Positions 14,715 to 25,039 of a DNA stretch of 64,000 bases are shown here, piece after piece. This DNA comes from an uncultured Ignavibacteria bacterium. GTDB taxonomy: Bacteria; Bacteroidota; Ignavibacteria; Kapaibacteriales; Kapaibacteriaceae. Positions within the stretch are counted from its first letter, which is position 1. Each line of letters begins with the position of its first letter. The stretch is from the NCBI GenBank assembly GCA_903939735.1, contig CAJAIA010000001.1, positions 227,169 through 291,168 of the forward strand. The letters are read 5' to 3'. The notes under the pieces are model-generated. The model was not told the origin of the DNA, did no database searches, and saw only the letters and a program-made list of their open reading frames with translations. The position numbers were made by a program, and so were the translations under genes.

Positions 14715-17700
14715 TCAGTGCTGCGATACATGTCCCTCCGCTGCAAGCTCACGTGCATTACGCACTGCACGACGCACTGCACGACGGCGGCGTTTCACCT
14801 CGCCAACGGCGTTGATGTAGTACATACATGGCACGACGACAAGCGTGAGGAACGTTGAGAAACTCAGACCGAACACAATTGACCACGCCAATGGTCCCCA
14901 GAAGGCTACACTGTCGGAACCAATATGGATATGTGGATTCCGTAGGTTGATCAACTCCCAGAAGTCAATGTTGAGTCCGACGGCCAGCGGCACCAGACCC
15001 AAGATTGTCGCACTCGCCGTGAGAATGACAGGATTGAAGCGGATAGCACCACCCTCGATGATCGCACGACGGACACGCCATCCTTGGTTGCGAAGGACAT
15101 CCGTGAAGTCAACAAGCACGATACCATTGCGCACCACAATACCAGCAAGCGCAATAATCCCTACGCCCGTGATTGCCACGGAGAACGTCATTCGGAAGAT
15201 GATAAAGCCAAGCAAGACACCGATCAAGCTAAAGACCACTGTTACCATGATGAAGAGTGGCTTACGGATCGAGTTGAATTGCGTCACCATGATTAACAGG
15301 ATCAGCATTGCCGAAACCGCAAATGCGAAGCCGAGGAAGTTGACACTCTCTGCTTGTTCTTCCTGTGCACCTGTGAGCGATATCTCGTACCCCGCTGGCA
15401 GATCGAGCCCCTTGACGGCGTCTCGAATCTCTGCATTGATCTCGTTCTCGTTATATCCTTCCAGGACATTCGATCCGAGCGTAACAACACGCTTCTGATT
15501 CTTCCGGTTAATACCGGCAAATGTCGACGTGTACTCGATCTGTGCGACTGACGACACAGGTATCTGTCGGAACTGTCCAGTACTCATATCACGGAATGTG
15601 AGTGGGATGTTCAACAGTGCCGCCGCATCTCCACGGAGATCCTCGCGGGCACGAAGCTGAACTGGGTATTCTTCCTCACCGGTACGGTACTTCGTTGCCT
15701 CTGCACCGTAGAGCGCATTTCGCAGTGCCATACCGATCTGGACAGTCGATACGCCTTCGGCGTTCGCCTTCTCACGATCTACACGGACCGAGATCTCAGG
15801 CTTGTTGCGAATGAGGTCACTTCTGAGGCGCTCAATGCCACCGATTTTTAACGAATCCACAAGAAGCTTGCGCACGCGCTCCTGCACAGCAACAAGCGTA
15901 TCGAGATCATCACCACTGATTTCGATGTTGATCGGTTTACCGGTTGGCGGACCGCTGGATTCCTTATCGACGACGATTTCGACACCAGCGAGATCAGCGA
16001 CAGCCTTCCGGAACTTTGGCAGATAGTCCTGTGTGCTTTCACCACCGCGATATTGGTACTCGACGAAGGCAACCGTGACCTTACCCTTGTGCGGTGTTAC
16101 GGTACGATCAGGATTTTGTGGATCACCAGCACCAAGTCCAACATTGGAAATAACCGACTTCACGAGTGGGTTATTGGTACCCAATACGTCTTGCACGCGC
16201 TTCTCAACGATGTTGACAACCGAATCCGTCTGAGCTGCATCTGTCCCGATTGGGAGCTGGACGTAGACATACGCATAGTTCGGATCGGCGCTCGGGAAGA
16301 ACGTCACCTGTGGTCCAGCAACAACCATCAGAAAGATCGAGACAACTAGCAGGACAACATTACCGCCAATGATGTAATACGGACGTCGACCTGTGAGGAC
16401 GTACCGCAACGTGCGACGATAAAACTCCATGATTCCTGGCAGCACCACTTCCTGGAAGGGCTTGATGAGTCGAGGTGTGATGTACACACGATTAAGCCAC
16501 CAGAAGCCAAAGACAAAGAGCGCAAGTGCACCAATCCATGCCGTTCCACTGCCGACTGCGATAGCTGCACCGATGGCAACAGCAGACACAAGTCCAATCA
16601 CGGCTCCAAGAACAAACAGCTTCTTGCGCGTTACACGCTGCGGTGGTCTATCCATGAAGTCGACGGCAAAGACCGGATTCATGATGTAGGCAACAATCAA
16701 CGATGCCGTGAGCGTAATGATGAGAATCGATGGCAGATACACCATGAACTCGCCAACTAAGCCAGGCCAGAACAGCAATGGGAAGAACGGAGCTAGCGTT
16801 GTTAAGGTACCAGCAACAACGGGAGCGAAGACCTCTGCGGCTGCATACTTCGTTGCCGTCTTGATGTCGAGGTTCTCCTTGGTATGCAAACGGTGGGTAT
16901 TCTCGATCACCACGATCGCATCATCGACGACGATACCCAGCGCAAGCAAGAATCCGAACGTCACCACAACATTGAACGTAAAGTCGAATGACGGCATCAG
17001 GATAAACGCCATAAAGGCAGACAGCGGCGTAGCAAGGCCCACGAAGAGCGCATTCTGTACACCCATGAAGAACATCAACACAATCGTCACGAGAATGAAA
17101 CCAATGATGATCGTGTTGATCAGATCCGCCAGATTGATACGTGTCGCATTCGACTGATCATTCGTGATCGTAATCGTAACGTTCTTGGGAAGCTTCGTTG
17201 CTTGATACTCTTCAACGATCTCACGAATCTGATCAGAAGCGTTGATGAGGTTCTCCCCTGCCTTCTTCAATACTGCGAGCGTAACAACTTCCTTGCCATC
17301 AAGGCGAGCATAGCTCTGCTGTTCCTTGTTGGTCTCAACAACGCTTGCAATGTCACGCACATACGCAGTGTTGCCGCGACCGCCACGGATAATCACGTTC
17401 TTGATTTGATCAGCGCTCGTGAATTCACCTGTGACCTGAAGATTCCGTCGAACGCCCGCATTGAGGACTTCGCCTCCAGAGATGTTGACGTTCTCGTACT
17501 GAATAGCACGAGCAACATCATCGAAGGACAGCCCGGCATTCTGAAGCAAATATGGATCGATATCGACGCGTACTTCCTTTTCCAGAGCACCGATGATATC
17601 TGCTCGACGGATTTCCTTGAGCGACTCGAACTTGTCTTGTAGTTCATCAGCGTAGCGCTTCAGCACATCAAGTCCGACGTTACCAGAAATGTTGACGTTC

Positions 17701-18137
17701 ATGATCGGGAATTCCGAGAAGTCGATTTCGCGGACGTCCGGCTCCTTCGTCAACTGTGTCGGCAACTCGGCACGTGCGCGGTCGACAGCATCGGTTACAC
17801 GTTGTTTCGCAACGATCGGATCGATCCCCGTTGTGAACTCAACAACCACGATCGACGCGTCCTGAATGCTTGTGCTCGTAACCTTCTTGACATCCGAAAC
17901 CGACTTGATCTGCTTTTCGATCGGACGTGAGATGAGATTCTCGATGTCGGTCGGAGTGGTGCCTGCATTGATAGTTGCCACAAGAATCGTCGGCACGACA
18001 ATATCTGGGAACTGCTCCTTGGGAAGGCGCATATATGTGATCACACCAAGAATGGTAATGATCACCATCAACACATAGATCGTGGTTTTGTTTTCAACAG
18101 CCCACGACGTGATGGGAAATTTCTTGTGATGGTGCAT
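14715..18137 (-). CDS. RND efflux pump, inner-membrane transporter (AcrB/MdtB-type)
   Basis: The 1140-residue product has the repeated RND layout: a first helix near residues 17-35, a large periplasmic loop, a helix block (about 345-560), a second large loop and a final helix block (about 930-1110). The proton-relay Asp pair is present in GIVVDDAIVVIENTHR. An extra helix pair with VTRKKLFVLGAVIGLVSAVAIGA (about 520-570) makes it longer than E. coli AcrB (1049). It expels drugs, metals or lipids using the proton gradient and needs an adaptor and a TolC channel, both encoded upstream in the same operon. It is the last gene; the adaptor gene ends ten bases upstream. Confidence 0.95.
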   Translation of the reverse strand: MHHHKKFPITSWAVENKTTIYVLMVIITILGVITYMRLPKEQFPDIVVPTILVATINAGTTPTDIENLISRPIEKQIKSVSDVKKVTSTSIQDASIVVVEFTTGIDPIVAKQRVTDAVDRARAELPTQLTKEPDVREIDFSEFPIMNVNISGNVGLDVLKRYADELQDKFESLKEIRRADIIGALEKEVRVDIDPYLLQNAGLSFDDVARAIQYENVNISGGEVLNAGVRRNLQVTGEFTSADQIKNVIIRGGRGNTAYVRDIASVVETNKEQQSYARLDGKEVVTLAVLKKAGENLINASDQIREIVEEYQATKLPKNVTITITNDQSNATRINLADLINTIIIGFILVTIVLMFFMGVQNALFVGLATPLSAFMAFILMPSFDFTFNVVVTFGFLLALGIVVDDAIVVIENTHRLHTKENLDIKTATKYAAAEVFAPVVAGTLTTLAPFFPLLFWPGLVGEFMVYLPSILIITLTASLIVAYIMNPVFAVDFMDRPPQRVTRKKLFVLGAVIGLVSAVAIGAAIAVGSGTAWIGALALFVFGFWWLNRVYITPRLIKPFQEVVLPGIMEFYRRTLRYVLTGRRPYYIIGGNVVLLVVSIFLMVVAGPQVTFFPSADPNYAYVYVQLPIGTDAAQTDSVVNIVEKRVQDVLGTNNPLVKSVISNVGLGAGDPQNPDRTVTPHKGKVTVAFVEYQYRGGESTQDYLPKFRKAVADLAGVEIVVDKESSGPPTGKPINIEISGDDLDTLVAVQERVRKLLVDSLKIGGIERLRSDLIRNKPEISVRVDREKANAEGVSTVQIGMALRNALYGAEATKYRTGEEEYPVQLRAREDLRGDAAALLNIPLTFRDMSTGQFRQIPVSSVAQIEYTSTFAGINRKNQKRVVTLGSNVLEGYNENEINAEIRDAVKGLDLPAGYEISLTGAQEEQAESVNFLGFAFAVSAMLILLIMVTQFNSIRKPLFIMVTVVFSLIGVLLGFIIFRMTFSVAITGVGIIALAGIVVRNGIVLVDFTDVLRNQGWRVRRAIIEGGAIRFNPVILTASATILGLVPLAVGLNIDFWELINLRNPHIHIGSDSVAFWGPLAWSIVFGLSFSTFLTLVVVPCMYYINAVGEVKRRRRAVRRAVRNARELAAEGHVSQH

Positions 18138-18147
18138 AGGTGTGCTC

Positions 18148-19296
18148 TTAGTTCACGACACGTACAAGTTGACCGTCGGCTACATCGGTTGTACCGCGGG
18201 TGATGACCTTCTCGCCTGCCTGAATGCCATTAAGGATTTGGATCGCGCCTCCGCTGGCAAGACCGGTCGTAAGTGGTCGACGACGAACGACTCCCTTGCT
18301 ATCAACGACATACGCGTACGAGCCAGCGTTGTCATGCAGCACGGAGCTGAGTGGGAGGACGAGTGCGTTTGGAATCGTCACATCATTGATCACAACACGG
18401 CATGTTGTATTTGGACGAAGGTTCTTCGGAACTGATGTGAGCGGTATCTCAACACGGAACGTGCGGCTCACAGGGTTCACCGACTTGGCCACGGTTGTGA
18501 TCTTGGTAATCATGGAGTCACTGATCTCAGAGAAGTGCAGTGTAACCGGATCACCGATCGTCACGCTTGGAATAAACGCCTCGGCAAGGTCCACCACCAC
18601 ACGCATGTCGCTTGTGTTAACGATCGTGCAGATCGGCATGCCGGGTCCAACATTCTCTCCGACCTTCGCTGTGAGATTGTCGATATAGCCGCTTGTAGGA
18701 GCTACAATGCGCGTCATACTCAACTGCTCCTGAAGCGATTCAAGTCGACGCTCAAGCGCTTCCTTTTGATTCTTAGCCGAGAGATACTGAATCTCACTAC
18801 CCGCTTTGAGATCAAAAATGCGCTTCTGTTTTTCATAGAGAGTGGTTGCAAAATCAAGTTGCAACTGTACTTCATCAATGCCCTTCTTGATAACTTCATT
18901 GTCGAGCTCAAGAAGCAGCTGGCCCTTCTTAACAGCTTGTCCGTTGACAATGCTGAGCAAATCAACTCTGCCGCCCATGAGCGGAGAGATCGTCACGGAC
19001 GAACGCGAGTCAACCGTGCCTTTCGCATCAACATGGTGTTCGAAGAGCTGCTGAGCGACACTCATGGTCTCAACTGGTTGTGCTCCAGCGGACTTTTCGG
19101 CTGGACTTTTGCCTGCTTCGAGCTCCTGAATCTTTTGATCGATTGTAGCCCGTTGCTTTCGTAGTTCGTCAAGCTGCTTCTCAACGGACTGACCCGACTC
19201 TGAGGAGCAGGCCATAAGCATCATCCCGAAGATCGCAACTGCACTGATTGTGCTGATTTGCATACGACATCCTGATAACGTGAAATATGTGTTCAT
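18148..19296 (-). CDS. RND periplasmic adaptor (membrane fusion protein), lipoprotein
   Basis: The product has 382 residues. Lipobox LMAC follows a hydrophobic stretch, then a short coiled coil (SVEKQLDELRKQRATIDQKIQELEAG), a lipoyl half (ISPLMGGRVDLLSIVNGQAVKKGQLLLELD), a coiled-coil hairpin (about 145-190), the second lipoyl half (IVAPTSGYIDNLTAKVGENVGPG) and beta-barrel domains. It links the RND pump to the outer-membrane channel. The ATG at 19296 overlaps the ATPase stop by ATGA and is preferred; an internal ATG 11 codons later would shorten the signal peptide. Confidence 0.92.
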   Translation of the reverse strand: MNTYFTLSGCRMQISTISAVAIFGMMLMACSSESGQSVEKQLDELRKQRATIDQKIQELEAGKSPAEKSAGAQPVETMSVAQQLFEHHVDAKGTVDSRSSVTISPLMGGRVDLLSIVNGQAVKKGQLLLELDNEVIKKGIDEVQLQLDFATTLYEKQKRIFDLKAGSEIQYLSAKNQKEALERRLESLQEQLSMTRIVAPTSGYIDNLTAKVGENVGPGMPICTIVNTSDMRVVVDLAEAFIPSVTIGDPVTLHFSEISDSMITKITTVAKSVNPVSRTFRVEIPLTSVPKNLRPNTTCRVVINDVTIPNALVLPLSSVLHDNAGSYAYVVDSKGVVRRRPLTTGLASGGAIQILNGIQAGEKVITRGTTDVADGQLVRVVN

Positions 19297-19991
19297 TGTT
19301 GCTCGTGTTGAATTATGCGACCGTCACGAATAGCTACGACACGATCTGCGCGCTCTGTGAACTGCATATCGTGCGTGACCATGAGGATCGTCTGGTGAAA
19401 CTCTGTCTTGAGATCCTGAAGAATATCGAGTACCAGAGCTGTGTTCTTCGTATCAAGATTACCTGTAGGCTCATCACCGAACAGAATCTTTGGATTGTTC
19501 ATCAACGCCCGTGCGATTGCAACGCGTTGCTGCTGTCCACCAGAAAGGCGGCTCGAGCGCTTCCGCGCCTGATCTGCAACACCCAGGAGCGTAAGATTCT
19601 TCATCGCACGTTCCTCGATCTCTTCTGGCGACCAGAGTCCCGCCTTAATAGCTGGCAAGGATACATTATCGAGCACCGTGAAGTCGGGCAACAGATAATG
19701 GAACTGAAACACAAAGCCGATCGTGGTATTTCGGAACTGCGCGAGTTGGTTCGGATTCAGCGCCTTGATATCAGTTCCGTCCACAGTGATCGTTCCTTCG
19801 TACTCCGTGTCGAGCGTGGACAGTGCATACATCAAGGTCGTCTTGCCACTTCCCGAGGGACCAACGAGTACAACGAACTCACCGCGATCGACAGTGAGAT
19901 TGATATCATCTAAAACACGGAACTCCACCGGATCGGTAAAGATCTTGGAGACATGCTTCGCTACGATGATGGGCTGCTCTTGCGTCATCAT
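19293..19991 (-). CDS. ABC transporter ATPase (MacB/LolD type)
   Basis: The 232-residue product has all ABC motifs: Walker A GPSGSGKTT (about 39-47), Q-loop FQFHYLLPDFTVLDNV, signature LSGGQQQRVAIARAL, Walker B ILFGDEPTGNLD and the H-loop VTHD. The PTGNLD ending and the spacing are those of the MacB/LolD/FtsE group. Such ATPases drive mechanotransmission through a partner permease rather than substrate passage. Both neighbours overlap it by four bases: the permease upstream and the RND adaptor downstream. Confidence 0.95.
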   Translation of the reverse strand: MMTQEQPIIVAKHVSKIFTDPVEFRVLDDINLTVDRGEFVVLVGPSGSGKTTLMYALSTLDTEYEGTITVDGTDIKALNPNQLAQFRNTTIGFVFQFHYLLPDFTVLDNVSLPAIKAGLWSPEEIEERAMKNLTLLGVADQARKRSSRLSGGQQQRVAIARALMNNPKILFGDEPTGNLDTKNTALVLDILQDLKTEFHQTILMVTHDMQFTERADRVVAIRDGRIIQHEQQ

Positions 19992-21259
19992 CGACTCCGA
20001 ATGATTTCAACTGGATCAAACCGTGATGCTTTCCGCGCTGGGAAATACCCGGCTATTGCCGTCGACAGCAACGCGAAACCAAATGCAACCAAGTAAAACA
20101 CCGGGTTGAAATTGATTGTTAGATACTGTACGCTCACAAAGCCTTGAATATTCAGAGGGATCGTACTCATGATCATCGAGGCAATAAACCCCAACAGCAG
20201 TCCAAGCAGTCCGCCCGTTATGCCGATCACCAGAGACTCAATCACGAAGATGGTGCTGATGTCCTTGTTTCGATAGCCCATCGCCTTGAGAATGGCAATG
20301 TCCGGCATCTTCTCATAGATGATTGTCATGAGAATGTTGAAGATGCCGAAGCCAGAAACGACGAGAATCGACGCGATCACGAAGGTGATCGTGATGTTCT
20401 GGATACGAAACACACCGAAGATGTTTGCGTTCGCCGCTACCCAGTCCTCAGCACGATATTGATAGCGTGCCTGGTACTCTGATGCGATAGCTTGGGCAGC
20501 ATTGACGTCACGCAGACGTACGTTGATATCGGTGATGTATGCACCAGACTGTTGCAAGAGTCGCTGTGCATTTCTGATGCTGATGTATGCTCGTGTATTG
20601 TCTTGTGCTGTGATACCCGTCTTACTCACAGCGACGATCTTCATGTCAAGAACGACACCCTTTGAGGAGATAATGGCGATGTTATCGTCCACTTGCACAC
20701 CTAACTTGTCGGCAAGTCCAGCACCGAGAATAATGCCATTCGGAATAGTCTGCATACGCAGCATATCTCCGTCGATCAGATTCTCTCGCACGCGGAACAG
20801 CTGATCTTCGCGCACGATATCGACACCTGCCATCGTCGCCGCCTGTTGGGCTGTACCGAATCGGACGATCCCCTGCAGTCCGAGGTATGGAGCTACGCCC
20901 TCAACGCGTGGATCCCTCTCGAGAGCCCGCAGAATCTGATAGCCGTTGCGTAACCGCCGTTCTTCATCACGGGGCTTTTGGTTTCGGACGACCTTCCACG
21001 TTGCGTCGTATTCTCGAACATTATCAAGCACATGCGGACGTTCAGCACGCACCTCATTGTAGATATGGATGTGCGCCGTTGTGTTGACAGTTTTTTCGAT
21101 GAAGTAATTCTGAAGACCCGTAAGCAAGCCAGCCTGGAAAATGAACACTGTCACTCCGAACATCACGCCCAGCATAGCGACAATCGTCTGTCGCTTCTTG
21201 CTGACGAGATGCACCCATGCAATCTTGATCAGAGGGTTATTTCGGAGTCGTGATATCAC
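19988..21259 (-). CDS. MacB/LolC-type ABC permease (FtsX family)
   Basis: The product has 423 residues with one N-terminal helix (about 20-42), a large periplasmic MacB_PCD-like domain (about 45-280) and three C-terminal helices ending FYLVAFGFALLSTAIAGYFPARKASRFDPVEIIRSR, the usual FtsX-family close. Together with the ATPase next to it and the MacA-like adaptor upstream it would make a MacAB-type exporter working through TolC. A LolCDE-like lipoprotein-sorting role is the main alternative, but the adaptor and TolC genes argue for efflux. Confidence 0.92.
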   Translation of the reverse strand: MISRLRNNPLIKIAWVHLVSKKRQTIVAMLGVMFGVTVFIFQAGLLTGLQNYFIEKTVNTTAHIHIYNEVRAERPHVLDNVREYDATWKVVRNQKPRDEERRLRNGYQILRALERDPRVEGVAPYLGLQGIVRFGTAQQAATMAGVDIVREDQLFRVRENLIDGDMLRMQTIPNGIILGAGLADKLGVQVDDNIAIISSKGVVLDMKIVAVSKTGITAQDNTRAYISIRNAQRLLQQSGAYITDINVRLRDVNAAQAIASEYQARYQYRAEDWVAANANIFGVFRIQNITITFVIASILVVSGFGIFNILMTIIYEKMPDIAILKAMGYRNKDISTIFVIESLVIGITGGLLGLLLGFIASMIMSTIPLNIQGFVSVQYLTINFNPVFYLVAFGFALLSTAIAGYFPARKASRFDPVEIIRSR

Positions 21260-22344
21260 TTCACAACCTCATCGTTATCACGAAGGCCAGATCGTATCTC
21301 TACATACTGGAGATCCTGTATCCCCTTCGTCACCGAGACAAGCACGTCATTACCGTCACGTCGCACGCGCACTTGTGAAGAGCCCACCAGATATTCTCGC
21401 GGAATAACCAGTGCTGATCGTTGCTGACGAGTCACGATGTTAGCTTCCACAGACATGCCTGGATAGACACGATGAGCAGACATAGACAATGTTGCACGTA
21501 CACGCGCTGACTTATCCGTTGTCGATACACGCGGTGTGATATCCGAGATGACACCCATGAATGTCTCACCCGTGTATGCATCAATCGAATAGTGCACAGT
21601 TTGTCCAGGTTGAATCAGCGCGATGTCGAGCTCGTCAACCGAGAGTTCTACCTCGAAGCCCGTCGATGAACCAACCTCTGCGAGGATCATTTGCTGCGTA
21701 ACTAGCTCTCCAACGTCTGGCACAACATTGAACACGGTACCGGATACTGCCGCGTAGATGATGTAATCGTCCCGCTGTGCGGTCTGTGAAGACACTTGAA
21801 GATTCGCATTGCGGAGTTCAGTTGCTACCCGCTGACGCGCTGAACGCAATGCATCGCTGGCCTTCCGTAGCGTCTCGGAGGAGATCGTGAGTTGAGCCTG
21901 TGCCGCATCAAGCAGTGCACGTGTCGTTGCTTGTTGCTGCAACAGCCGGGTTTGTCGCGCGGCATTCAACGAATCCAACACATAGCGGGCACGTGCCGCT
22001 TCGACGTCGCGTGCGAAGGCCGAGAGGAACGCACCTGTTGGCTCAGCATTGTCGCGTGCGAGCGCTAGCTGATTACGTGCTGCTTCAATTCCCACGTCAT
22101 TCGCGACACTCTTGATCCGCATGATCGGCTGTCCGACCACCACCGAATCGCCCTCACGTACAAAGATCTCTTGTACGATGCCGGGCACCTTTGTCGAGAC
22201 CTGCATGAAATTCAGTGGGTAGATCTTTCCCGACGCATAAACCGCCTGTGTGATGTCGCGACGCTCAGGTTGCACACTGTCAGACTTGGATGAGCAAGCG
22301 ACCAGCGTAGCAGCAAGCACGAGGATTACGAGTGCATTCTTCAT
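21256..22344 (-). CDS. MacA/HlyD-type periplasmic adaptor, lipoprotein
   Basis: The 362-residue product has a lipoprotein signal (LVILVLAATLVACSS, lipobox LVAC). Lipoyl halves are VSTKVPGIVQEIFVREGDSVVVGQPIM and IIYAAVSGTVFNVVPDVGELV, separated by a long coiled-coil hairpin (about 95-190). A beta-barrel and membrane-proximal domain follow. It most likely couples the ABC permease encoded next (ATGA overlap) to TolC. It differs clearly from the second adaptor in this operon, which belongs with the RND pump. Confidence 0.9.
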   Translation of the reverse strand: MKNALVILVLAATLVACSSKSDSVQPERRDITQAVYASGKIYPLNFMQVSTKVPGIVQEIFVREGDSVVVGQPIMRIKSVANDVGIEAARNQLALARDNAEPTGAFLSAFARDVEAARARYVLDSLNAARQTRLLQQQATTRALLDAAQAQLTISSETLRKASDALRSARQRVATELRNANLQVSSQTAQRDDYIIYAAVSGTVFNVVPDVGELVTQQMILAEVGSSTGFEVELSVDELDIALIQPGQTVHYSIDAYTGETFMGVISDITPRVSTTDKSARVRATLSMSAHRVYPGMSVEANIVTRQQRSALVIPREYLVGSSQVRVRRDGNDVLVSVTKGIQDLQYVEIRSGLRDNDEVVK

Positions 22345-23048
22345 TGCTTCACCATCGTGGAGAGTGGACGAGTACGATCCCCGAAGAGATAGTCAGCACA
22401 TGCCGGTGTTGTTGGTGATTCGAGACTACGGATGAACATGCACGACATGTTGTGCATGACGAGTCGGAGATCCTGAAACGGGAGTGCGGGTGGGACCATT
22501 CCATTGGATATGATGACCATCGTACCCTTGATTGCAAGCATCATTTCCATCACAACCAGTTCTATTGGTTGCGAAAGATGAAACACACCTTCGTCGATGC
22601 CTCGTCGAACAATCGACGTGATGAGGTTCAACATTCGGCTGTTGGCGATTCGAAACTGCTCGAGGTGTTCACTCTGTTCTTGGCTTGCAACAAGCGACTG
22701 CATATTGAGATGCGTGATCATCTTGTAGAAGACATCGTTGTTCTGCGAGAACTCGTAGAAGCAACCCGGCACGGAGATCAGCTGTTCTTGGGGCGTTGTG
22801 CGGTTAGCGATCGTGGTTTCGATCTCATCGATGAGTCGGTTAAAATCATGCACCAGAAGAGCCATGATCAGCTCATCGCGGTTCTTGAAGTAGAGATAGA
22901 GCGTGCCCTTGGCAAGTTCGGCCTCACTCGCGATGCGATCCATCGACGTATGCTCGAGTCCGTACTTCTCAAATGCGAGACGTGCCGACTCGAGAATATC
23001 GAATCGACGCTGTTCGCGCTCACGCTCTTTTCGTTCACGTACGCCCAT
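22341..23048 (-). CDS. TetR-family transcriptional regulator
   Basis: The product has 235 residues. The N-terminal helix-turn-helix reads ILESARLAFEKYGLEHTSMDRIASEAELAKGTLYLYFKNRDELI (about residues 18-62), a textbook TetR domain. The rest is the helical ligand-binding domain. The N-terminus is highly charged (KEREREQRR). It lies between tolC and the MacA-like gene, with ATGA overlap to the latter, so it is co-transcribed with the pump genes it very probably represses. The likely operators are the two TGAC-N5-GTCA palindromes in front of tolC. Confidence 0.93.
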   Translation of the reverse strand: MGVRERKEREREQRRFDILESARLAFEKYGLEHTSMDRIASEAELAKGTLYLYFKNRDELIMALLVHDFNRLIDEIETTIANRTTPQEQLISVPGCFYEFSQNNDVFYKMITHLNMQSLVASQEQSEHLEQFRIANSRMLNLITSIVRRGIDEGVFHLSQPIELVVMEMMLAIKGTMVIISNGMVPPALPFQDLRLVMHNMSCMFIRSLESPTTPACADYLFGDRTRPLSTMVKQ

Positions 23049-23059
23049 AGCGGATGTCC

Positions 23060-24400
23060 TTATCGAACCATGCGACGATACTTCTCGTCGACCACACCCG
23101 TGACGCGCTCGAAATCAGCACGCTTGACATGATAATCGAGCAATGCGTTGATCTCATTCACTCGCGCCTGCGCAAGCGCGGTTTCTGCATCGGTGATTTC
23201 CAGCAGACTACCCGTGCCTTCGGTATAGCGAATCTTCGAAATATCATAGCCGCGCGTTGCCTGCGTGACGGAAGTCTTTTGCGCATCGATACGAAGCTTC
23301 GCTGAACGCACATCGTTAAGTGAAGCACGTACCTGCAGCTTCAGCAATTCAAGGATCTGGTCGTAGCGCTGCTGTGCTGTCTTGTAATCAATCGATGCTT
23401 GCTCAACGCGCGATGACGTGCGGAGACCATCGAACAGGTTCATCGAGAAGTTCAATCCAACGACCGTGCTCGATGCCGAGAACCAGTTTGACAACGACTC
23501 GCTTTGACCTTGATTTTGCCATTGACCAAAGGCTGCGATTGTTGGGAAGTAGTCGGAGCGGTTAATCGAGATAAACTCCTTCGCGACCTTGACCTGCAGC
23601 GCAAGAGCCTTTAGGTCCAGATTCTGCTCCATAGCTTGGCGCAGTGCAGCGTCCTCCGCAGGAGGATCGACCGGAACATCGAGTCCCTCCCGTGAGAGTG
23701 TCAACGTATCTGTGAGCTCCAGCGAAAGGTAGGTTTGCAGAGCAGCCAATGCATTGTTGGCACCTGCTCGTGAATCGATCACAATAGGCTCTGTGTTGGC
23801 AACGGCCACATCTGCACGGATCTTATCGAACTCCGCAACGAGTCCCTCGCTGAACAGCGCCACAATCGTCTTACGCGTCTCGAGCACATTGTTGAAGGTG
23901 GCTTCTGCCACGCCGACAAATCCAGTTGCGGCAAGAGCGCGATAGTAGCGCTTCTTCGTCTCGGCTATCACCTCGGCGACCTTCGCATCAAGTGCAGCCT
24001 CAGACGCATCTTCGTAAATCTTCGAGGCACCGATTCCCGTAAACACGGCGCTGTTGAAGAGGATCTGCTGAACTTGCGCATTGACGTTGTATGCGTTGGT
24101 CAAGCCAAACCGTAACGGTGCTACCTCGCCCGTCTGTGGGTTCGGAAAGAAGAACACCGGCAACTGTATGTTGTAGTTGTATCCAGCGCTAATGGCGAGT
24201 GACGGGAGTGCGTTACCGAACGCCTCCGTTACCTGCGATGAGGCCTTTGACACACCCAGCTTGGCTATGGTGATTTCCCTATTCTGCTTGAGCGCGATGG
24301 TGATGGCCTCGTCAAGTGTTAGGGGGCGCACACTCGCGCCCAACGAGCCGATGCTCAACACAAGTACGACGAGAAGCACAAGACGATGTCGTGCTACCAT
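23060..24400 (-). CDS. TolC-family outer-membrane efflux channel
   Basis: The 446-residue product has an N-terminal signal peptide (LVLLVVLVLSIGSLGAS) and two OEP repeats. The first opens LTLDEAITIALKQNREI and the second VDPPAEDAALRQAMEQNLDLKAL; each is followed by long alpha-helical stretches rich in alanine and glutamine. The protein would form the trimeric outer-membrane exit duct. As first gene of a seven-gene operon holding two different inner-membrane transporters and two adaptors, it may serve both. Confidence 0.93.
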   Translation of the reverse strand: MVARHRLVLLVVLVLSIGSLGASVRPLTLDEAITIALKQNREITIAKLGVSKASSQVTEAFGNALPSLAISAGYNYNIQLPVFFFPNPQTGEVAPLRFGLTNAYNVNAQVQQILFNSAVFTGIGASKIYEDASEAALDAKVAEVIAETKKRYYRALAATGFVGVAEATFNNVLETRKTIVALFSEGLVAEFDKIRADVAVANTEPIVIDSRAGANNALAALQTYLSLELTDTLTLSREGLDVPVDPPAEDAALRQAMEQNLDLKALALQVKVAKEFISINRSDYFPTIAAFGQWQNQGQSESLSNWFSASSTVVGLNFSMNLFDGLRTSSRVEQASIDYKTAQQRYDQILELLKLQVRASLNDVRSAKLRIDAQKTSVTQATRGYDISKIRYTEGTGSLLEITDAETALAQARVNEINALLDYHVKRADFERVTGVVDEKYRRMVR

Positions 24401-24445
24401 GGAACTACCTTTCGGACGTCTTAAAATGACGGTTTGGAGATTTTC

Positions 24446-24458
24446 TGACTAACGGTCA
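24446..24458. promoter_or_regulatory. Operator 1: TGAC-N5-GTCA palindrome
   Basis: TGACTAACGGTCA is a perfect TGAC/GTCA inverted repeat with a five-base centre. It lies directly downstream of the tolC -7 element, at the expected transcription start. It is a probable site for the TetR regulator encoded by the second gene of the operon. Confidence 0.65.
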
Positions 24459-24490
24459 CAAAAATGACGAATAGTCAGCTTTTTGCCAAA
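24459..24490 (-). promoter_or_regulatory. tolC efflux operon promoter
   Basis: Read leftward, TTTG (24490-24487) is followed by exactly 20 bases and then CATTTTTG (24466-24459). This is a one-mismatch fit to the Bacteroidota TTTG-N20-TAnnTTTG promoter. Both TGAC-N5-GTCA palindromes overlap or abut it, as expected for a repressor that blocks polymerase. The start would fall near 24452, with a leader of about 50 bases. Confidence 0.55.
24465..24477. promoter_or_regulatory. Operator 2: TGAC-N5-GTCA palindrome
   Basis: TGACGAATAGTCA repeats the architecture of operator 1, 19 bp away centre to centre. It overlaps the -7 element and lies in the promoter spacer. Outer related arms TGACGGTTTGG (24427-24437) and CCAAACGGTCA (24486-24496) form a larger nearly perfect inverted repeat around both sites. 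Confidence 0.65.
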
Positions 24491-24493
24491 CGG

Positions 24494-25039
24494 TCAAACG
24501 TCGTCGCGCCCGTGGAGGTTCCCCAAGAGCGATGCTGGAACCGATCCGACATCTGCAACGACGATGTCAGCGGCATTCTCGGGATGCTGACCGATCAGCA
24601 CCGTGTGCACGCCCGCCGCCCTGCCCGCTTGCGCGTCGGTGATCGAGTCGCCGACGAACCAACTAGCGCTTGGGTCGATATCTAGGTCTTCAATTGCGTC
24701 GAGAAGCATTCCGGGCGAAGGTTTACGCCGGGGGTCGTTCTCGCTCGCCAAGGACGTGCAAGCATAGATGTGGTTGATCTGAAAACCGAGGTGACGGTGA
24801 ATGAGCGAATTCATCTGCTGATGCACAGCATGCAAATCGTCCAGCGTCATAAGCCCCTTGCCAATACCTTGCTGATTCGTGATTACAACCAGGATGTACC
24901 CGGCGTTGTGTGCCATAGCAAGCAGCGGAAGTATGTCAGCATCGAGAACAAACTCCGATGGTGACGTCACATAGCCACCAATAATGCGGTGATTGATCAC
25001 ACCATCGCGATCAAGAAAGAGTGCTCGTTGCTTCGTCAT
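24494..25039 (-). CDS. HAD-IIIA phosphatase, GmhB/HisB-N-like
   Basis: The product is 181 residues from the ATG at 25039, which overlaps the helicase stop by ATGA. HAD motif I is ALFLDRDGVIN, motif II VVITNQQGIGKG, motif III-IV RKPSPGMLLDAIEDLDID and FVGDSITDAQAGRAAGV. The fold and length fit D-glycero-D-manno-heptose-1,7-bisphosphate 7-phosphatase (GmhB), a step in LPS-core heptose synthesis. However, the zinc loop normally holding several cysteines and a histidine reads YACTSLASENDPRRKP with a single cysteine, so zinc binding is probably lost. The substrate is therefore uncertain. Confidence 0.78.
   Translation of the reverse strand: MTKQRALFLDRDGVINHRIIGGYVTSPSEFVLDADILPLLAMAHNAGYILVVITNQQGIGKGLMTLDDLHAVHQQMNSLIHRHLGFQINHIYACTSLASENDPRRKPSPGMLLDAIEDLDIDPSASWFVGDSITDAQAGRAAGVHTVLIGQHPENAADIVVADVGSVPASLLGNLHGRDDV

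Follow-up and report, generated by a model that had tools for sequence, protein, structure and literature searches.

What controls the seven-gene efflux operon encoded on the minus strand of this stretch of DNA (64,000 nucleotides from an uncultured Ignavibacteria bacterium, hereafter the window)? TetR-repressed efflux operons are common, and the operon (tolC-tetR-hlyD-ftsX-abc-hlyD-rnd) contains a TetR gene of its own. Its first gene (23060..24400) encodes a TolC-like outer-membrane efflux protein (Pfam OEP, 1.1e-53) and its second (22341..23048) a TetR protein of 235 amino acids (Pfam TetR_N, 2.8e-12), the proposed autoregulated repressor. These are followed by HlyD1, the periplasmic adaptor of an ABC cassette (21256..22344; Pfam HlyD_D23), a MacB/LolE-like FtsX permease (19988..21259; Pfam FtsX and MacB_PCD), an ABC ATPase (19293..19991; Pfam ABC_tran), HlyD2, an RND periplasmic adaptor (18148..19296; NCBIfam TIGR01730, 205.6 bits, above the cut-off), and the final gene, an RND efflux permease (14715..18137), for which the top NCBIfam models are those of RND permeases, with scores below the cut-offs. 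Given the gene order, and because neighbours mostly overlap by 4 bp or are otherwise separated by gaps of 10–11 bp, tolC to rnd is likely a single transcript. Scanning the operon for sigma-70 promoters and terminators yielded no more hits than did shuffled sequences. Our answer, drawn from comparative sequence analysis, is that the region upstream of tolC is very likely an autoregulated control switch of the whole operon, worked by TetR dimers on four tandem palindromes.

The gene content of the operon varies. The ABC cassette (adaptor-permease-ATPase, 19293-22344) lies inside the tolC-tetR-RND operon in the window and at loci L047, L060 and L062-L065, and the operon lacks it at L049-L051, which belong to the same genus as the window. 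Since only some members have the cassette, two pumps appear to share one tolC and one TetR in some species. In the subclade comprising L060 and L062-L065, the operon does not lie beside gmhB, and the same array is found in this other neighbourhood; upstream of tolC in L060, on the opposite strand, is what we take to be the start of a uvrA-like gene.

The forward strand upstream of tolC carries two palindromes of the form TGAC-N5-GTCA, TGACTAACGGTCA (24446-24458) and TGACGAATAGTCA (24465-24477), 19 bp apart from start to start, just as the initial annotation described. Viewed in minus-strand order, they are the middle members of a series of four tandem sites, O1 to O4, which follow one another at 19-bp intervals. 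O2 (TGACTATTCGTCA, 24465..24477) and O3 (TGACCGTTAGTCA, 24446..24458) are perfect predicted operators, based on the sequence and on the family alignment, the latter of which also places O3 over the predicted transcription start. O1 (TGACCGTTTGGCA, 24484..24496) and O4 (CTCCAAACCGTCA, 24427..24439) are degenerate predicted operators with 7/8 and 5/8 fixed bases, respectively; the right half of O4 is perfect. The five central bases, earlier written as a free N5, mostly follow YR-N-YR and hence are not free. The proposed operator code is thus a 13-bp palindrome, TGAC-YR-N-YR-GTCA, repeated at a pitch of 18–19 bp.

The outer sites had been noticed before as the arms of a larger, near-perfect inverted repeat. 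Both arms are indeed present, TGACGGTTTGG at 24427-24437 and CCAAACGGTCA at 24486-24496, and they are complementary but for one base, as would be expected if the repeat were itself the functional unit, either as a palindrome acting over a long range or by folding into a cruciform/hairpin. However, each arm falls within a 13-bp stretch that lies exactly 19 bp from the neighbouring site, and L049 and L057 retain O2 and O3 but not the arms as a long inverted repeat. Because the arms match the 19-bp register, we rejected the large repeat as a functional unit, which we regard as very improbable, and read the arms instead as the degenerate, in-register operators O1 and O4. One arm had also been placed in the 3′ end of the gmhB-like gene; the overlap exists but is confined to the TGA stop codon (24496-24494), which supplies the first three bases of O1.

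Could such palindromes arise by chance? Taken singly, they are no more frequent than expected. TGAC-N5-GTCA occurs three times in the window (2.5 expected), and a pattern search of the whole genome found 26 occurrences versus 32 for the reversed pattern, so that single palindromes show no enrichment over the reversed control. Almost all the other single sites in the genome lie within long ORFs, most of them with weaker matrix scores, and for these reasons we propose no wider regulon. The pair behaves differently. When two sites with a 6-bp spacer were sought, matches with up to two mismatches were found in the genome solely within the array. Allowing up to three mismatches gave six places. Three lie in the array and overlap one another: O1-O2 (1 mismatch), O2-O3 (0) and O3-O4 (3). 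The remaining three have 3 mismatches each. The exact pair is therefore unique in the genome, and frequent chance occurrence, which would have counted against the operator reading, is not seen.

We then considered other genomes. A search of the order (123 genomes) for the exact pair at a spacer of 4–8 bp found it in nine places, every one of them upstream of the orthologous tolC-tetR-RND operon. With spacers of 0–30 bp allowed, there are 13 doublets, 12 of which are at the orthologous operon, and the spacers seen there are only 5, 6, 23 and 25 bp, corresponding to pitches of 18, 19, 36 and 38 bp. The wider range adds four doublets. Three are at the operon with a pitch of 36 or 38 bp (two that skip an imperfect middle site and one that belongs to a related family); the fourth lies elsewhere and has a pitch of 22 bp. 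In 395 genomes of the phylum, we found 12 further exact doublets, compared to none for the reversed control. Ten of these, with a pitch of 18 bp, adjoin a tetR ortholog (about 30–35% identity) or tolC; the other two (L105 and L106) look like chance occurrences, of which about 1.4 are expected from base frequencies. Thus, chance would account for single sites, which occur at chance frequency, but a pair that is unique in its genome and conserved is another matter; the pair counts in genome, order and phylum refute an accidental origin, which we consider barely credible.

The order's sole doublet away from the operon (L092, G110:C222:49-83) is formed by TGACTTTTGGTCA occurring twice, unchanged, at a distance of 22 bp, with none of the operon's genes adjoining. 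As we read it, the ORF beside it resembles a tryptophan 2,3-dioxygenase gene, and these sites may serve another regulator whose binding site is similar.

Which protein, then, would bind the sites? Many regulator families use palindromic sites, and a protein of another type, such as MarR or Crp/Fnr, might be responsible. To evaluate the association with TetR, we ran a profile search of the phylum and examined the 22 TetR relatives that ranked highest. At least one perfect palindrome lies upstream in 18 of these 22 orthologs, the best site pair being mostly <180 bp from tetR, whereas none was found upstream of 20 paralogous TetR genes in the same family of genomes. Hence the sites follow this particular TetR subfamily, and they do so even where the nearest gene is tetR itself. 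This phylum-wide tracking, and the absence of sites at paralogous TetRs, argue against another regulator, which seems improbable to us. It is very probable that the operon's own TetR uses the palindromes O2 and O3 as its operators, and the co-occurrence with orthologs but not paralogs supports the earlier proposal that the co-transcribed TetR would bind here and regulate its own synthesis.

The protein has the expected features. Its N-terminal helix-turn-helix domain scores 46.6 bits against TetR_N (Pfam PF00440; cut-off 24), and the AlphaFold model (pLDDT 88, 10 helices) has the all-helical TetR fold. The nearest solved structures are Bacillus FadR, followed by PfmR, DarR, MtrR and EthR, at about 14–22% identity. 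Scores against the NCBIfam models fell below the cut-offs for the Bacillus FadR equivalog (67 bits versus 200), MtrR (46 versus 280) and AcrR (30 versus 271). The best-conserved parts of the protein are the recognition region, ELAKGTLYLYF, and the N-terminal segment MG..ER[KR]...E...RR.

To assess the conservation of the array, we aligned upstream regions on O3 for 22 family members, including the window, together with further members of the order. O3 keeps at least 7/8 fixed bases in 21 of the 22 family members. Two lineage classes can be distinguished. In class A, made up of the window's genus and one more (12 members), O1, O2 and O4 lie at –38, –19 and +19 from O3; the pitch is 19, O2 ends in GTCA, and the –7 element is CANNTTTG. 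In class B (10 members), the corresponding offsets are –37, –18 and +18; the pitch is 18, O2 ends in GTA, and the –7 element is TANNTTTG. Mapped onto the TetR tree, whose inner forks are poorly resolved, the class label requires at least two changes.

These alignments bear on whether the outer sites matter at all. TetR might act on O2 and O3 alone, as two independent dimers, with the outer half-sites being functionless relics. Such a scheme would suit the imperfection of O1 and O4 in the window and the variation in array size, most relatives outside genus g1 having only one or two good sites, and two or one being usual outside the family. Yet the four array positions (including that of O3) are the top four of 105 offsets in both classes separately, and 0/2000 shuffles matched the observed mean scores at O1, O2 or O4. 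Moreover, the site at the O4 position is perfect in the same-genus relatives L062-L065, and in L064 there are three perfect sites in a row at the 19-bp pitch. We consider action through O2 and O3 alone rather unlikely on these grounds and favor the four-site array, within which O1 and O4, being degenerate in the window genome, may be weak or unused.

The array is superimposed on a putative promoter. The minus strand does carry the TTTG-N20-CATTTTTG promoter motif of the initial annotation (24490-24487 and 24466-24459). Its –33-like TTTG (24487..24490) lies within O1, and a TTG-type element occupies the same place in many relatives. Its –7 element, CATTTTTG (24459..24466), is of the TANNTTTG type, based on the sequence and the family alignment; it sits at the O2/O3 junction and shares its CA with the end of O2, the predicted start falling in O3. 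Among the 12 class A members, 11 have CANNTTTG as the octamer preceding O3; among the 10 of class B, 9 have TANNTTTG there. In the Bacteroidetes, the consensus promoter has a –7 element TAnnTTTG and a TTTG near –33 (PMC7366714), which the octamer before O3 and the TTTG fit. Genome-wide, the TTTG/TANNTTTG consensus shows weak enrichment (12 matches versus 7 for the control); as this enrichment is not clear, we base the promoter assignment on how well the elements are conserved at these operons. In L062, upstream of tolC, the TTTG has moved 2 bp into O3 (TGCCGCGCGGTCA), the sole such shift in class A.

The change from TA to CA in the –7 element coincides with the completion of O2. We infer that a single inserted C would convert the class B GTA into the class A GTCA, completing the right half of O2. 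The same insertion would disrupt the TA of the –7 element at its T and add one to both the pitch and the promoter spacing. The pattern resembles a contest between operator and promoter for the same bases.

Several features read from the sequences, namely the sites and the constant register in which they stand, where they lie on the promoter signature, how they are conserved and which TetR subfamily they accompany, together suggest the following mechanism. TetR made from the second gene would bind the 13-bp TGAC-YR-N-YR-GTCA palindromes as dimers. Because O1–O4 (two perfect, two degenerate) cover the predicted promoter, including the –33 element and extending some 20–30 bp beyond the start, bound dimers would exclude RNA polymerase and thereby repress the operon, tetR included. 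A pump substrate or other ligand would bind TetR, which would then leave the DNA, switching on the operon and tetR with it. Repression and autoregulation are well-supported predictions from the comparative data; binding itself, release by ligand and cooperative filling of the array by several dimers are projected from the arrangement of the sites.

The initial annotation envisaged two dimers on adjacent faces of the DNA. Its placement of operators at the promoter is supported, but there are four in-register sites, and geometry predicts a different disposition of dimers. A pitch of 19 bp is, arithmetically, about 1.8 helical turns, so that successive dimers would be rotated by roughly 70 degrees and, on geometry only, a row of them would wind around the DNA. 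More speculatively, four dimers might form a short helical row whose register is held by contacts between neighbours, possibly via the N-terminal extension, which is strongly conserved (MG..ER[KR]..RE...RR); such a row would make the response sharp and switch-like. As part of the same tentative scheme, pitch (18 to 19 bp) and promoter spacing (N19 to N20) might have coevolved, since the –7 element has bases in common with the operator.

Several known systems resemble parts of this arrangement. EthR of Mycobacterium tuberculosis, which has a similar fold, reportedly octamerises cooperatively on its operator (Engohang-Ndong 2004), so that several dimers would lie side by side as proposed here, although its target and lineage are different. 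That target is ethA (PMC5895659). An EthR-like cooperative, multi-dimer operator would be consistent with the constant pitch seen in 22 relatives. QacR, the repressor of qacA, is likewise a TetR-family repressor of an efflux gene and binds as two dimers to overlapping palindromes of one operator region (PMC6018408); in contrast, the 13-bp sites described here are separate and tandem, with an 18–19 bp pitch, spacers of 5–6 bp and no overlap. DarR of Mycobacteria and Rhodococcus, which regulates a putative multidrug transporter, binds DNA as a dimer of dimers with direct inter-dimer contacts (PMC10636190). It is similar in being a TetR regulator of a transporter with several dimers on DNA, but its palindromes overlap within a 20-bp operator and it responds to c-di-AMP/cAMP (PMC10636190). 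Bacillus FadR (PDB 3whb, 5gpa), the closest solved structure by profile and fold (about 16–20% identity), controls fatty-acid degradation rather than efflux. Within the Bacteroidetes, the TetR repressor BmeR5 of Bacteroides fragilis reportedly binds in the intergenic region of bmeABC5 (PMC4790292), an RND efflux operon whose control would thus parallel that predicted here. Searches of the accessible papers for this operator, for tandem TetR operators and for TetR efflux regulators of this lineage returned nothing closer; neither a non-overlapping array of 18–19 bp pitch conserved with a TetR across a phylum nor the code TGAC-YR-N-YR-GTCA at that pitch was found described in them.

Collectively, these data make it very probable that a genuine switch exists here, that it is autoregulated and that its layout is more ordered than that of a plain operator pair. 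They provide a proposed sequence-level operator code for a TetR subfamily, in front of efflux operons across the phylum, from which the regulator can be predicted for many pump operons that lack annotation. The locus would be a naturally occurring example of several TetR sites arrayed at a constant pitch, as well as a clean case in which an operator and a promoter element appear to compete for the same bases.
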